From Parafrankia elaeagni (GTDB lineage: Bacteria > Actinomycetota > Actinomycetes > Frankiales > Frankiaceae), in assembly GCF_000374165.1 (NCBI RefSeq), contig NZ_KB893725.1, positions 1 through 64,000 of the forward strand: DNA of 64,000 nt. The letters are read 5' to 3'. This document shows, piece by piece, positions 35,592 through 40,832 of the stretch. A program made the translations under genes and the position numbers. Positions within the stretch are counted from its first letter, which is position 1; every line of letters begins with the position of its first letter. The notes under the pieces are model-generated. The model was not told the DNA's origin. It saw nothing but the letters and a program-made list of their open reading frames with translations, and did not search any database.

Positions 35592-35696
35592 TCCTCGGGC
35601 TACGCCAACGCGATCAACCGCCGAGGCCAGGTCGTCGGCTTCACGAGCCCGCAGGGCGGGCGCCGGATCCCCCTGCTCTGGCAGGCTGCCGTCTGA
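35592..35696 (+). pseudogene. Remnant of a HAF-repeat protein
   Basis: In the plus frame ending at TGA 35694-35696, the translation contains YANAINRRGQVVGF and RRIPLLWQ. This matches the HAF repeat pattern of secreted proteins (A-INxxGQVVGxS...AFLW). There is no start codon, upstream residues are Pro/Arg-rich, and the fragment overlaps the 3' end of the monooxygenase gene. It looks like a fossil of about one repeat. Confidence 0.45.
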
Positions 35697-37128
35697 CGTC
35701 GCCGGTCGCGCCCGGCCCGGTCCCCCCCGGCGGCCCGGCCGGAACCACGGGCTCGGGCCGCCCCGCGGGCTCGCGCGACACCGCAGGTTCGGCCGGTTCG
35801 ACCGGTTCGGCCGGCCTCCCGGACCCCGCCGGCGCAGCGGGCCGGGTCGCGTCGGCGGGCAGCGGGCGGGCGGGCAGGACCGGCTCACCGCGCCGGCGGG
35901 CCAGATACCACCGCAGGCCGGTGTCGAGCGCGCGCTGGGCCCGGCGCACCACCGGCAGCTGCATCGCCCGGTGGATCTGGTAGCGCCACGGGGGCTGGTC
36001 GCTCTGGCGGACCGCCATCGCGTACGCGAACTCGACCGGATCGGGGCCGCCCGCGCCCGCCGGCATCCGGTCGAGCAGCGCGTCGACCCGTTCGAACCAG
36101 GCCATGCTCGTCCGCGCGCGGGCCTGCAGCGGAGCGAGGGCGGCGTGGCCGTCCCGGTCGAACTGGGCGAGCGCCCCGGGGACGTCGTCGTGCTCGTAGA
36201 GCATCTGGGCGAGCATGACTCCGTCCAGCATCGCCAGCGCGGTGCCGGAGCCGAGGGTGAAGTGGGTGGTGTGGGCGGCGTCGCCGAGCAGCACCGTGTT
36301 GCCGGCGTACCAGCTGCGGTTGCTGATTTGGGCGAAACGCTGCCACCGGGCGGGGCGGCCGGGGTGGTCGATCAGGCCCTGTCCGCCGAGCGGGCCGGCG
36401 AAGATCTCGCTGAGGCGCCGGCGTACCTCGCCGGCGTCCGCGGTGGCGAACCCCAGCCGCTCCCAGGTACCCGGCGCGCATTCGACGATGCAGGTGCTGA
36501 TGTCCGCGCTGGACGGGTAGGCGTGGAACCACACCCAGCCCGCCGGAGTGCGCTCGAAGGCGAAGGTGAAGTTGTCGAAGCGCCGCGGTGTCCCCAGCCA
36601 GATGTACTGGTTCGCGCCGAGGTCGGTCCGGGTGCCGAACTGGCCGTCGAACATCGTGCGCAGCTGGCTGTTCGCGCCGTCGGCGGCGACGACCAGGTCT
36701 GCGTCCGGGCGGGACGGCGTCCCGACCCCGCCGAGGGCTCCCAGGTCGGCCAGGTCGGTCAGGTCCGCGATCTCGCGCCGGTGTTCGACGTGCACCCCGA
36801 GCTCGACGGCCCGCCGGGTGAGGATCTCCAGCAGGGCCGACCGCTGCACGCTGAACCCGTAGCCGGCGAAGTGCGCGACCCGGCCCGGGCCGAGACTGAT
36901 CCGCTGCTCCTGCCAGAGCGCGGACGCGGCCCGGATCTCCCGGGCGCTGTCCGCGTCGTTACGGAACAGGACGTCGAGCAGGTTGTCCCAGTAGACGACG
37001 CCCCAGCCGTACGTGGCGGCCGGGGAGTCCCGGTCGATCACCGTGATCTCGTGGCCGGCGTCCCGGCGCATGGCGGAGATGGCGAAGTAGAGGCCGGCCG
37101 GCCCCCCACCCACGCAGACGATCCTCAC
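35641..37128 (-). CDS. FAD-dependent monooxygenase, salicylyl-CoA 5-hydroxylase type
   Basis: A 495-residue class A flavoprotein monooxygenase. The dinucleotide motif CVGGGPAGLYFAIS is at the very N-terminus, followed by the TYGWGVVYWDNLLD loop, and the second FAD motif is VLLGDAAHTTHFTLGSG. This N-terminal signature is characteristic of salicylyl-CoA 5-hydroxylase and anthraniloyl-CoA monooxygenase relatives. The GTG at 37128 follows AGGGGGG. The last about 90 residues are Pro/Ala/Gly-rich and probably disordered. Two 15-bp direct repeats lie upstream. It is downstream of and co-directional with the Gly/Trp peptide gene. Confidence 0.82.
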   Translation of the reverse strand: MRIVCVGGGPAGLYFAISAMRRDAGHEITVIDRDSPAATYGWGVVYWDNLLDVLFRNDADSAREIRAASALWQEQRISLGPGRVAHFAGYGFSVQRSALLEILTRRAVELGVHVEHRREIADLTDLADLGALGGVGTPSRPDADLVVAADGANSQLRTMFDGQFGTRTDLGANQYIWLGTPRRFDNFTFAFERTPAGWVWFHAYPSSADISTCIVECAPGTWERLGFATADAGEVRRRLSEIFAGPLGGQGLIDHPGRPARWQRFAQISNRSWYAGNTVLLGDAAHTTHFTLGSGTALAMLDGVMLAQMLYEHDDVPGALAQFDRDGHAALAPLQARARTSMAWFERVDALLDRMPAGAGGPDPVEFAYAMAVRQSDQPPWRYQIHRAMQLPVVRRAQRALDTGLRWYLARRRGEPVLPARPLPADATRPAAPAGSGRPAEPVEPAEPAVSREPAGRPEPVVPAGPPGGTGPGATGDVRRQPARAGGSGARPAGS

Positions 37129-37262: not shown

Positions 37263-37306
37263 GGCGGGCCGCGGGGAAACGGGGCCCGCCTCGGGGCTCA
37301 CGCCCC
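37263..37306 (-). terminator. Two hairpins after the Gly/Trp peptide gene
   Basis: GGCGGGCC/GGCCCGCC (37263-37270 and 37283-37290) and GGGGC-TCAC-GCCCC (37293-37306) lie 60-100 nt downstream of the peptide stop on the minus strand. They may end that transcript before the monooxygenase gene. Confidence 0.45.
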
Positions 37307-37320
37307 TGACTCGCCTTCTC

Positions 37321-37357
37321 GGGAGAGTGCGGTCACGCCCGGGAGAGTGCGGTCACG
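37321..37357. repeat. 17-bp direct repeat with 20-bp period
   Basis: GGGAGAGTGCGGTCACG occurs at 37321-37337 and 37341-37357, just beyond the stop of the Gly/Trp peptide gene. Confidence 0.85.
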
Positions 37358-37366
37358 GCGCCGGGC

Positions 37367-37549
37367 TCACCAGCCCCAGCCGCCGCCCCAGCCCCAGCCG
37401 CCCCAGCCCCAGCCGCCCCAGCCGCCCCAGCCCCAGCCACGGCCCCAACCGCCGCCGCCACCACCACCGACGATCAGCACGCCGGCACGGGTCGAGTCTC
37501 GGAACGAGCCCTGGGCCTGGATCGCCGGTGCTTCGTATGTCGCCCTCAT
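37367..37549 (-). CDS. Lasso-type RiPP leader joined to a Gly/Trp-rich tail
   Basis: A 60-residue peptide. Residues 5-20 match the lasso-peptide leader pattern YxxPxLx3Gx5T exactly in spacing (Tyr5, Pro8, Ile10, Gly14, Thr20), the part recognised by the RRE/B1 protein. After RAGVLIV the tail (residues 28-60) is only Gly and Trp with one Arg: ten Trp at 35, 39, 41, 44, 47, 49, 52, 54, 58 and 60. There is no Asp/Glu to close a lasso ring, so the product must be something else. ATG at 37549 with a GTGAGGAG ribosome site supports translation. No lasso B or C protein is seen nearby; the only co-directional neighbour is the flavin monooxygenase. Confidence 0.7.
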   Translation of the reverse strand: MRATYEAPAIQAQGSFRDSTRAGVLIVGGGGGGGWGRGWGWGGWGGWGWGGWGWGGGWGW

Positions 37550-37913
37550 CGCGTACTCCTCACGTCCGAGTCACCTCACGTGATCTCCGGCTGGCCGGGC
37601 ACCCGTAGCCATCCGACCTCGAAGGCCGACGATGGGTAGCACCCGTCCGATCTCTATCGTGCCCCCATCCGGTTCAGTGACGGTTCAGTCTCGTGACGTC
37701 ACCATTCCGGTTCTGGTGTCACCACAAGCGACGATTTCGCCGCCCGGGAATCCCCGGCTCCTCCGGGCCGGAGCACGGGTTGGGACCGGCCCTCCAGGGA
37801 AGGCCGTCGCGAACGCCGGAAACAACGCCGGGAACACTGCCGGGGACGCGACCGCTCGCCCGATCGCGACCACTCGCCCGGATCGCGACCGCTCGCCGAT
37901 GAGGAGCGCTGCC
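37550..37913. other. 364-nt divergent intergenic region, peptide / NADH dehydrogenase
   Basis: No gene is seen. It should hold the promoters of the leftward peptide gene and the rightward NADH dehydrogenase gene. Short repeated words (GGTTCAGT twice near 37672-37692; GATCGCGACC and CACTCGCCCG near 37860-37895) are present. An in-frame extension of the dehydrogenase into this region reads as low-complexity sequence. Confidence 0.5.
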
Positions 37914-39519: not shown

Positions 39520-40743
39520 TCAGCGGCCGGCGACCTCGGAACGGGCGACGACGCCGATGTCCGGGTTGTCGGTGAACACCCCGTCGATGCCGGCACGCAG
39601 GTAGGCGACCTGCTCGTCGATGGCGCGGCCGTAGTCGCTGGTGACGGTCCCCCGGCGCAGGCCCGGCGGCAGGAACTGGTTCTCCGCCCGGAACGTGTAC
39701 GGGTGGACCAGCAGCCCGGCGGCGTGCGCGTCACGGACCAGAGCCGTCGGGGCGGCGAGCTTGCCGTCCGCGCCGACCGGGATGACCTGGCCCTTCTCCG
39801 GGCCGACGCCGTTCGCGTAGGCCGCGATGCCCTTCAGCCCGGCGGGGGTGATCAGGTCGGCGTAGGTGCGCGGGTCGCCGGCGGCGGCCAGGTCGTAGGG
39901 CGCCCCGGCCGAGCTCAGCAGCTGCACCGCGTTCGTCCGCAGGCCGCGGCGGCGCAGGTCGCCGAGGTTCTTCGTCTCGAACGACTGGACGAACACCGGC
40001 GCGGTGCGGGTGTTCAGCCCGTTGCGGTGCAGGATGTCCAGCAGCCGCTGCTCGAGGGCCAGCCCGGCCTGCTGGAAGTAGGTCGGGTGCTTGGTCTCCG
40101 GGTAGACGCCGATCTCGCGGCCGAGCTCCGACGACAGGCGGCGGCGCAGCTCCAGGACCTCGATGAAGGTCGGGATCTCGTACCGGCCGTCATACAGCGT
40201 GTTCTCCTGCCGGACCGCGGGCAGTCGCTCCTTCGCCCGCAGCTTCTTCAGCTCGGCGAGGGTGAAGTCCTCCGTGAACCAGCCGGTGACGGCGACGCCG
40301 TCCAGCTGCTTCGTCACCCGGCGGGCGGCGAACTCGGCGCGGTCGGCGACGTCCGTCGTGCCGCCGATCTCCGGCTCGTGCCGGCAGACGAGATGACCGT
40401 CCTTCGTCACCACCAGGTCCGGCTCGACGAAGTCGGCGCCCATCCGCGCGGCGAGCTCGTAGGAGGCCAGGGTGTGCTCCGGGCGGTAGCCCGACGCACC
40501 GCGGTGGCCGATCACCAGCGTCCGGTTCCCGCGGCCGGGACCGCCGGGGCGCCCGTCCGCCGGCGCGCCGGACCCGGCCGGAGCAGCCGAGGCGGCCGAG
40601 GCGGTGGCCACGACCAGCGGCGCGGCGGCGAGACCGGCGATCAGTCCGCGCCGGCCCACCCCCCGCCGGGACTGCGCCGACGGGTCGGCCGAGGGGTCAC
40701 CGGCCGGTTCGCTGCCGCGAACATCCTGCCCGCGAGGCTCCAC
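39520..40743 (-). CDS. glpQ: Secreted glycerophosphodiester phosphodiesterase
   Basis: A 407-residue GDPD-family enzyme that hydrolyses glycerophosphodiesters to glycerol-3-phosphate and an alcohol. The catalytic set is seen as His80-Arg81 (GHRGASGYRPEHT), Glu107/Asp109 (FVEPDL) and His122 (CRHEP). A Tat-like signal with Arg pairs (SRRGVGRRGLIAG, residues 25-37), a hydrophobic stretch and an ASAAPA cleavage region indicates export. The GTG at 40743 is supported by GGAGGA; an upstream in-frame extension is dismissed. It matches the periplasmic GlpQ form rather than the cytosolic UgpQ form. It is convergent with the NADH dehydrogenase gene. Confidence 0.9.
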   Translation of the reverse strand: MEPRGQDVRGSEPAGDPSADPSAQSRRGVGRRGLIAGLAAAPLVVATASAASAAPAGSGAPADGRPGGPGRGNRTLVIGHRGASGYRPEHTLASYELAARMGADFVEPDLVVTKDGHLVCRHEPEIGGTTDVADRAEFAARRVTKQLDGVAVTGWFTEDFTLAELKKLRAKERLPAVRQENTLYDGRYEIPTFIEVLELRRRLSSELGREIGVYPETKHPTYFQQAGLALEQRLLDILHRNGLNTRTAPVFVQSFETKNLGDLRRRGLRTNAVQLLSSAGAPYDLAAAGDPRTYADLITPAGLKGIAAYANGVGPEKGQVIPVGADGKLAAPTALVRDAHAAGLLVHPYTFRAENQFLPPGLRRGTVTSDYGRAIDEQVAYLRAGIDGVFTDNPDIGVVARSEVAGR

Positions 40744-40832
40744 AGATCCTCCAGCGCGGCGACGGCGTCCGTCGCCGGCGGCGCGCGCCACCAAGCGAAG
40801 CAATCACGGAGAACGCGGGAACGGATCAGACA

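Follow-up and report, generated by a model that had tools for sequence, protein, structure and literature searches.

A lasso-type leader with a Gly/Trp tail in Frankiaceae: a candidate cyclase-free RiPP family paired with an FAD monooxygenase

The window, a stretch of 64,000 nucleotides from Parafrankia elaeagni (contig NZ_KB893725.1, here G000:C56 of genome G000), encodes a peptide that joins a lasso-type leader to a tail of Gly and Trp (GW), and a gene for an FAD-dependent monooxygenase lies directly downstream on the same strand (Table 1). The reading that we favour, with moderate confidence, is a linear, cyclase-free RiPP derived from lasso peptides, whose leader would be removed in trans by the lasso proteins B1 and B2 and whose Trp residues would be hydroxylated by the neighbouring FAD enzyme. 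This reading is based on the linkage to the FAD gene, on a TGAACC box that is shared with lasso operons, and on the retention of B1 and B2 where the lasso precursor has been lost.

An earlier note, made from the sequence alone, had credited the gene with a good ribosome-binding site, and the last base of a GAGGAG is indeed located six bases 5´ of the ATG. GGAGGA precedes four of the six Parafrankia orthologues and GGAAGGGG precedes the other two. The note had further described a precise fit of the leader to the lasso pattern YxxPxLx3Gx5T. Tyr5, Pro8, Gly14 and Thr20 agree with this pattern, whereas the 'L' position is occupied by Ile10. The lasso type of the leader, which it had also proposed, is borne out by the family NF033521 (lasso_leader_L3), which matches the peptide with 22.4–23.1 bits, above the curated cut-off of 19; Pfam DUF5972 scores 18.8 bits, below its cut-off of 22.6. 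The NF033521 leader family is already named by NCBI. Known lasso precursors carry YxxPxL at -17 to -12 and Thr at -2 (PMC10368454). Numbered in the same manner, the Tyr of the window peptide would stand at -17 and the Thr at -2, and the core would start from Ala22. The unusual tail was read correctly: the 33 residues from 28 to 60 comprise ten Trp, one Arg and otherwise Gly. No Asp or Glu was observed beyond residue 18, so the peptide has no acceptor at core position 7–9, as the note had pointed out.

Table 1. Positions of the GW precursor gene, its control elements and the adjacent monooxygenase gene in the window.
Feature	Position	Strand	Details and basis
Promoter box TGAACCGTCACTGAACC, direct repeat of 11-bp period	37671..37687	minus	Shared pattern TGAACC-N5-TGAACC
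Ribosome-binding site GTGAGGAG	37556..37563	minus	Sequence
GW precursor gene, 60 aa	37549-37367	minus	ATG at 37549, TGA stop; translation MRATYEAPAIQAQGSFRDSTRAGVLIVGGGGGGGWGRGWGWGGWGGWGWGGWGWGGGWGW
Lasso-type leader, residues 1-21 (MRATYEAPAIQAQGSFRDSTR)	37487..37549	minus	NF033521 match at residues 5-23; predicted cleavage site
Predicted core: hydrophobic AGVLIV followed by the Gly/Trp tail (ten Trp), residues 22-60	37370..37486	minus	Translation and family alignments
Hairpin between GW precursor and FAD oxygenase genes	37263..37290	minus	Sequence; putative role
FAD-dependent monooxygenase, VioD / salicylyl-CoA-5-hydroxylase type	35641..37128	minus	GTG start at 37128, ORF open to 37245

Homologues that keep both the leader and the GW tail, for which the earlier note had proposed a search, form a family that spans the Frankiaceae, which are soil and plant-symbiont bacteria. 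Orthologues are present in all seven Parafrankia genomes, and true GW peptides, read one by one, occur in 25 of the 36 Frankiaceae genomes. A single-sequence search gave a match in 26 of the 36 at E 0.1 and a profile search in 29 at E 0.01; the matches beyond the 25 GW genomes are weak or ordinary lasso precursors and were left out of the count. G035:C812 is a lasso precursor (GHFGWGYD), and the weak match G023:C117 and the matches in G012, G025 and G027 are not GW genes. Outside the family, a class-wide profile search (394 genomes including the 36 Frankiaceae, with scoring limited to 16 candidates in each) recovered no GW peptide in 358 genomes; its sole match there, in G336, was ruled out as an ordinary lasso-type precursor with an Asp. 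Several draft contigs end within GW repeats (G005:C289, G008:C11 and C379, G010:C200 and C291, G034:C9), and GW genes are therefore probably undercounted. Conversely, L028 and L023 look like a single gene divided between two contigs. The g7 loci L180, L181, L184, L185 and L193 carry paired GW genes, which are separated by ~320–350 bases in four loci and by 3.1 kb in L184. A variant in L025 (G002:C44, 2340-2525) has GHHGGWGW-type repeats, whose His pairs might bind metal. Among the matches listed from the open PMC literature, we found neither a published account of the GW family nor the combination of a lasso-like leader, a GW tail and a flavin monooxygenase.

A conserved neighbour was also found, namely the adjacent flavin monooxygenase. 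Homologues of its gene occur in 24 of the 36 Frankiaceae genomes. At E 1e-20 each of these has a single copy, apart from G032, which has a second one of 37% identity. In 19 of these 24 genomes a complete GW gene is located directly upstream, in surroundings that otherwise differ. The contig end cuts the upstream GW tail in G008 and G010, the upstream ORF of G034 is Gly/Trp-rich without a readable leader, and the contig of G035 begins 184 bases ahead of the FAD gene, so that an upstream GW gene cannot be read. The FAD gene of G020 is present with no GW gene found in that genome, and in G015, G017 and G019 GW peptides are present with no FAD match found. When the neighbours in 31 loci were grouped into 70 clusters, only the FAD enzyme was present in all three genera; two others were present in two genera. 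In the part of the neighbours that was searched against families, no oxygenase was recognised beside the GW genes L025, L175, L177, L182, L183, L188 and L189–L192.

The closest solved relative of the FAD enzyme by sequence is VioD (E 4.2e-36), which was deposited as a probable tryptophan hydroxylase. An AlphaFold2 model of the enzyme (mean pLDDT 83.4, pTM 0.85) is likewise closest in the PDB to VioD (E 5.9e-33, TM 0.77 and 0.85, 24–26% identity in the fold alignment), followed by kynurenine (KMO) and pyridine hydroxylases. VioD hydroxylates an indole ring. Its substrate is a small molecule in violacein synthesis, in contrast to the role proposed for the FAD enzyme. The FAD enzyme scores 162 bits on the VioD profile NF053547 and 315 bits on the salicylyl-CoA 5-hydroxylase profile NF006101, below their equivalog cut-offs of 620 and 1078, respectively, and 31.5 bits on the QhpG profile (cut-off 240). 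Of cross-linking, hydroxylation and membrane insertion, which the earlier note had offered as possible chemistry for the tail, we infer that hydroxylation has the strongest support. Another flavoprotein monooxygenase, QhpG, the peptidyl-Trp dihydroxylase of quinohemoprotein amine dehydrogenase, is known to hydroxylate Trp in a protein (PMC7876137). As described, the Trp that QhpG modifies lies in an enzyme subunit and is the precursor of a tryptophylquinone, whereas the GW substrate would be a Trp-repeat RiPP, and the similarity is low. Hydroxylation of Trp has also been proposed in a lasso-type pathway for RES-701-4, which contains 7-hydroxy-Trp. Unlike the GW peptide, RES-701-4 is a true lasso with a single C-terminal Trp, and the proposed enzyme, ResE, is described as having no known domain (PMC7280977).

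Because the salicylyl-CoA 5-hydroxylase profile scores above VioD, a small aromatic substrate is possible for the FAD enzyme. In that case the GW peptide would be linear, cut by B1/B2 and exported, and the FAD enzyme would be co-regulated only, a reading that we regard as unlikely. An LLM oxidoreductase and, as read by eye, a P450 and a thiolase-like gene near the window GW gene are consistent with it. However, Frankia and g7 loci do not share these degradation-type neighbours, in all three genera it is the FAD gene alone that comes after the GW gene, and G020 is the single FAD genome that is clearly without a GW gene. Still less probable is a tail that is oxidatively cross-linked (Trp-Trp or Trp-backbone) instead of hydroxylated, with the FAD enzyme and a P450 as interchangeable cross-linkers. 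P450-made Trp cross-links occur in other RiPPs, and in G000 and G001 the second GW gene (L027 = G000:C54 and L026 = G001:C126) is followed on the same strand by a cytochrome P450 gene in place of the FAD gene. Against cross-linking, the structures closest to the FAD enzyme are the simple aromatic hydroxylases VioD and KMO, and the two genomes that show the P450 pairing have the same surroundings there.

The enzymes that would process a hydroxylated, linear GW peptide are encoded elsewhere in the genome, where the earlier note had suggested looking for an RRE/B1 or a peptidase. Both B1 (NF033530, 104.1 bits, cut-off 70) and B2 (NF033537, 109.5 bits, cut-off 33) exceed their curated cut-offs at G000:C36, which is unlinked to the GW precursor. 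In the 32 genomes that were laid out, the Frankiaceae lasso locus has the order AfsR-like regulator, precursor, cyclase, B1, B2 and ABC exporter, and the precursor cores of complete loci, for example GRWGWGRDWLWRSF, have Gly1 and Asp8. The P. elaeagni locus has no cyclase between the regulator and B1, and a Frankiaceae lasso cyclase query found none in this genome at E 1e-10. A canonical lasso peptide was rejected for the window GW gene because it has no Asp/Glu acceptor and no cyclase. Of five NF033521 matches in the genome, only the window GW gene is above the cut-off; a GW paralogue comes next (17.7 bits), and the remaining three score 12.9 bits or less. By NF033521, then, no leader-bearing substrate other than GW peptides is evident for B1/B2. 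A second PqqD-like gene (G000:C86) was set aside; it is located amid transposase-like genes, with no lasso genes noticed.

Loss of the lasso precursor with retention of B1/B2 is common to several genomes. In nine (seven Parafrankia, G030 and G033) both precursor and cyclase are missing from the locus, while the regulator, B1 and B2 are retained; in G005 the exporter is lost to the contig end. The cyclase query gave no match in six of these nine and one weak match each in G003, G005 and G006 (E 1e-12 to 1e-14, ~30% identity), which is located away from the lasso-locus contig and has general asparagine-synthase-like motifs. In six Frankia (G007, G010, G011, G016, G017 and G018) B1/B2 are kept, and either no lasso precursor was found or there is only a relic that lacks the acceptor Asp. 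The cyclase ATP motifs SGGxDS or GGDE are altered in five of these six (in G010 and G017 by no more than an Asp-to-Glu change) and are intact in G011. All 15 genomes in which the lasso precursor is missing or decayed and B1/B2 are retained encode GW peptides. The peptides also accompany intact cyclase motifs and a normal lasso precursor in, for example, G008, G029 and G034, which speaks against their being a mere substitute for the lasso pathway. G009 has a normal lasso precursor and a cyclase motif that reads SGGLSS. In Parafrankia, purifying selection acts on both B1 and B2 (B2 of P. elaeagni versus G002: dS 0.53, dN 0.11). The literature matches listed contained no relevant report of lost lasso cyclases. 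Lasso-type precursors with Gly/Tyr/Arg/Phe-rich cores were observed in the genus g6 (L221 in G027, L128 in G025, L132 in G023), where the cyclase is missing in G025 and G027, and the G023 core has no Asp/Glu though the cyclase motifs are intact. This pattern may be a second departure from lasso chemistry.

GW genes and lasso operons share a promoter box. The exact pattern TGAACC-N5-TGAACC occurs in 55 copies in 1,188,023 bases of 68 loci and in none in the reversed sequence; since each locus was selected for its GW or lasso gene, the flanks serve as background. Twenty-nine copies stand ahead of GW genes (including L189 and L190) and 26 ahead of lasso precursor/cyclase operons, of which 25 lie between the regulator and the next gene and one lies ahead of the G035 lasso precursor. 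When one mismatch was allowed within 350 bases upstream, the box was found ahead of 40 of 42 GW entries (35/36, with one gene probably entered twice, and 5/6 further genes) and at all 24 non-Parafrankia lasso loci, compared with 21 of 4000 random windows, in which real boxes were left. The two GW entries without a good box are G008:C11 (two mismatches) and the second gene of the G032 tandem pair (four). None of the seven Parafrankia B1/B2 operons has the relaxed box. A sigma-70 promoter scan found nothing. The classical site of SARP regulators consists of heptamers repeated every 11 bp, a type of site common to AfsR and PhoP (PMC10972967, PMC4415409). A tandem TGAACC array with five exact box copies in ~105 bases (L128, G025:C56, 8955-9059) stands ahead of the precursor of a locus without a cyclase. 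In the window, a glycerophosphodiester phosphodiesterase gene (39520-40803) is located near a box that resembles a PHO box, and a phosphate link is possible.

The GW gene is under coding constraint. Differences at codon positions 1/2/3, summed over pairs of the seven Parafrankia orthologues, number 42/58/178 in the leader and 111/27/225 in the tail, the alignment of which is uncertain because of the repeats. For the genes of P. elaeagni and G006, dS is 0.89 and dN is 0.05. With dN far below dS in both leader and tail, the gene is under purifying selection in Parafrankia, and this result, together with the third-position bias and the orthologues in every genome of the genus, indicates that the gene is not a product of chance. 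It is very improbable that GW genes yield no product and are simply lasso precursors in decay or low-complexity noise: the repeat tail varies in length and lasso genes are decaying in several Frankia, but the low dN, the box retained in nearly all GW entries and the three GW genes of G030 stand against it.

Two further features downstream of the gene, to which the earlier note had drawn attention, carry no weight. The bordering direct repeat is exact, although it spans 18 bp (37320-37337 and 37340-37357) instead of 17, and it is absent downstream of six Parafrankia orthologues and at six other loci checked. Found, among these loci, only in its own genome, it is probably incidental and was rejected as a functional element. 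A hairpin does follow the GW gene, although the 110 bases 3´ of it fold no better than shuffles (z -1.2). The corresponding z is -1.65 to +1.07 in the seven Parafrankia, -2.5 and -3.1 in two Frankia, and -0.96 to -4.83 across seven g7 genes; in the three paired g7 loci that were folded (L180, L185 and L193), a strong hairpin comes after most of the GW genes. Given this variation among genera, the hairpin was rejected as a general feature.

Under the favoured reading of a linear, hydroxylated RiPP, we infer the following route. A SARP/AfsR-type regulator, or PhoP with its similar site, would turn on the GW gene via the TGAACC repeat. B1 would bind the YxxPxI leader and the adjacent monooxygenase would hydroxylate Trp side chains in the Gly/Trp tail, B2 would cleave between residues 21 and 22, and the product would leave the cell through the MsbA-like exporter whose gene shares an operon with B1 and B2. 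In paeninodin, B1 binds the leader and presents it to B2 (PMC5067487), and actinobacterial FusB1 is described as having relaxed leader specificity (PMC13381572). The GW system has its leader family, B1 and B2 in common with lasso peptides of albusnodin/ikarugamycin-type cyclase clusters and its promoter box with Frankiaceae lasso operons. It differs in the Gly/Trp tail without an Asp/Glu acceptor, in the lack of a cyclase at the P. elaeagni lasso locus and in a precursor encoded outside the B1/B2 operon. The linear polyphosphorylated peptides (LPPs) of Bacillota are similar in having a lasso-like YxxP leader, a discrete RRE, an exporter, no macrolactam cyclase and a linear product. As described, however, LPPs employ a SpI-type signal peptidase, an HprK-like kinase and an NTP transferase, whereas the GW system retains B2 and is partnered with a flavin monooxygenase (PMC13381572). 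The C-terminal end of the G028 lasso precursor, GVIIIGGGGGGWGW, is much like the start of a GW core, for example GFIIIGGGGGWGWGG in G004, within the bounds of low-complexity sequence. This resemblance suggests that GW peptides descend from lasso precursors whose ring segment was lost and whose tail expanded.

More tentatively, the family may represent a new Frankiaceae RiPP class of Gly/Trp polymers with hydroxy-Trp or tryptophylquinone, in which lasso machinery is re-used in trans after cyclase loss and the product would be a secreted redox-active, pigment-like or adhesive material. If it does hydroxylate Trp, the FAD enzyme would act as a peptidyl-Trp hydroxylase at multiple sites and could serve to produce hydroxy-Trp peptides. 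Since the precursors, the processing enzymes and the tailoring enzymes are scattered and joined by one promoter box, cluster-based RiPP mining could miss such systems. If the favoured reading is true, a single bacterial family would have converted its lasso pathway on more than one occasion to the making of a cyclase-free RiPP, with the RRE and the peptidase retained and an oxygenase recruited.
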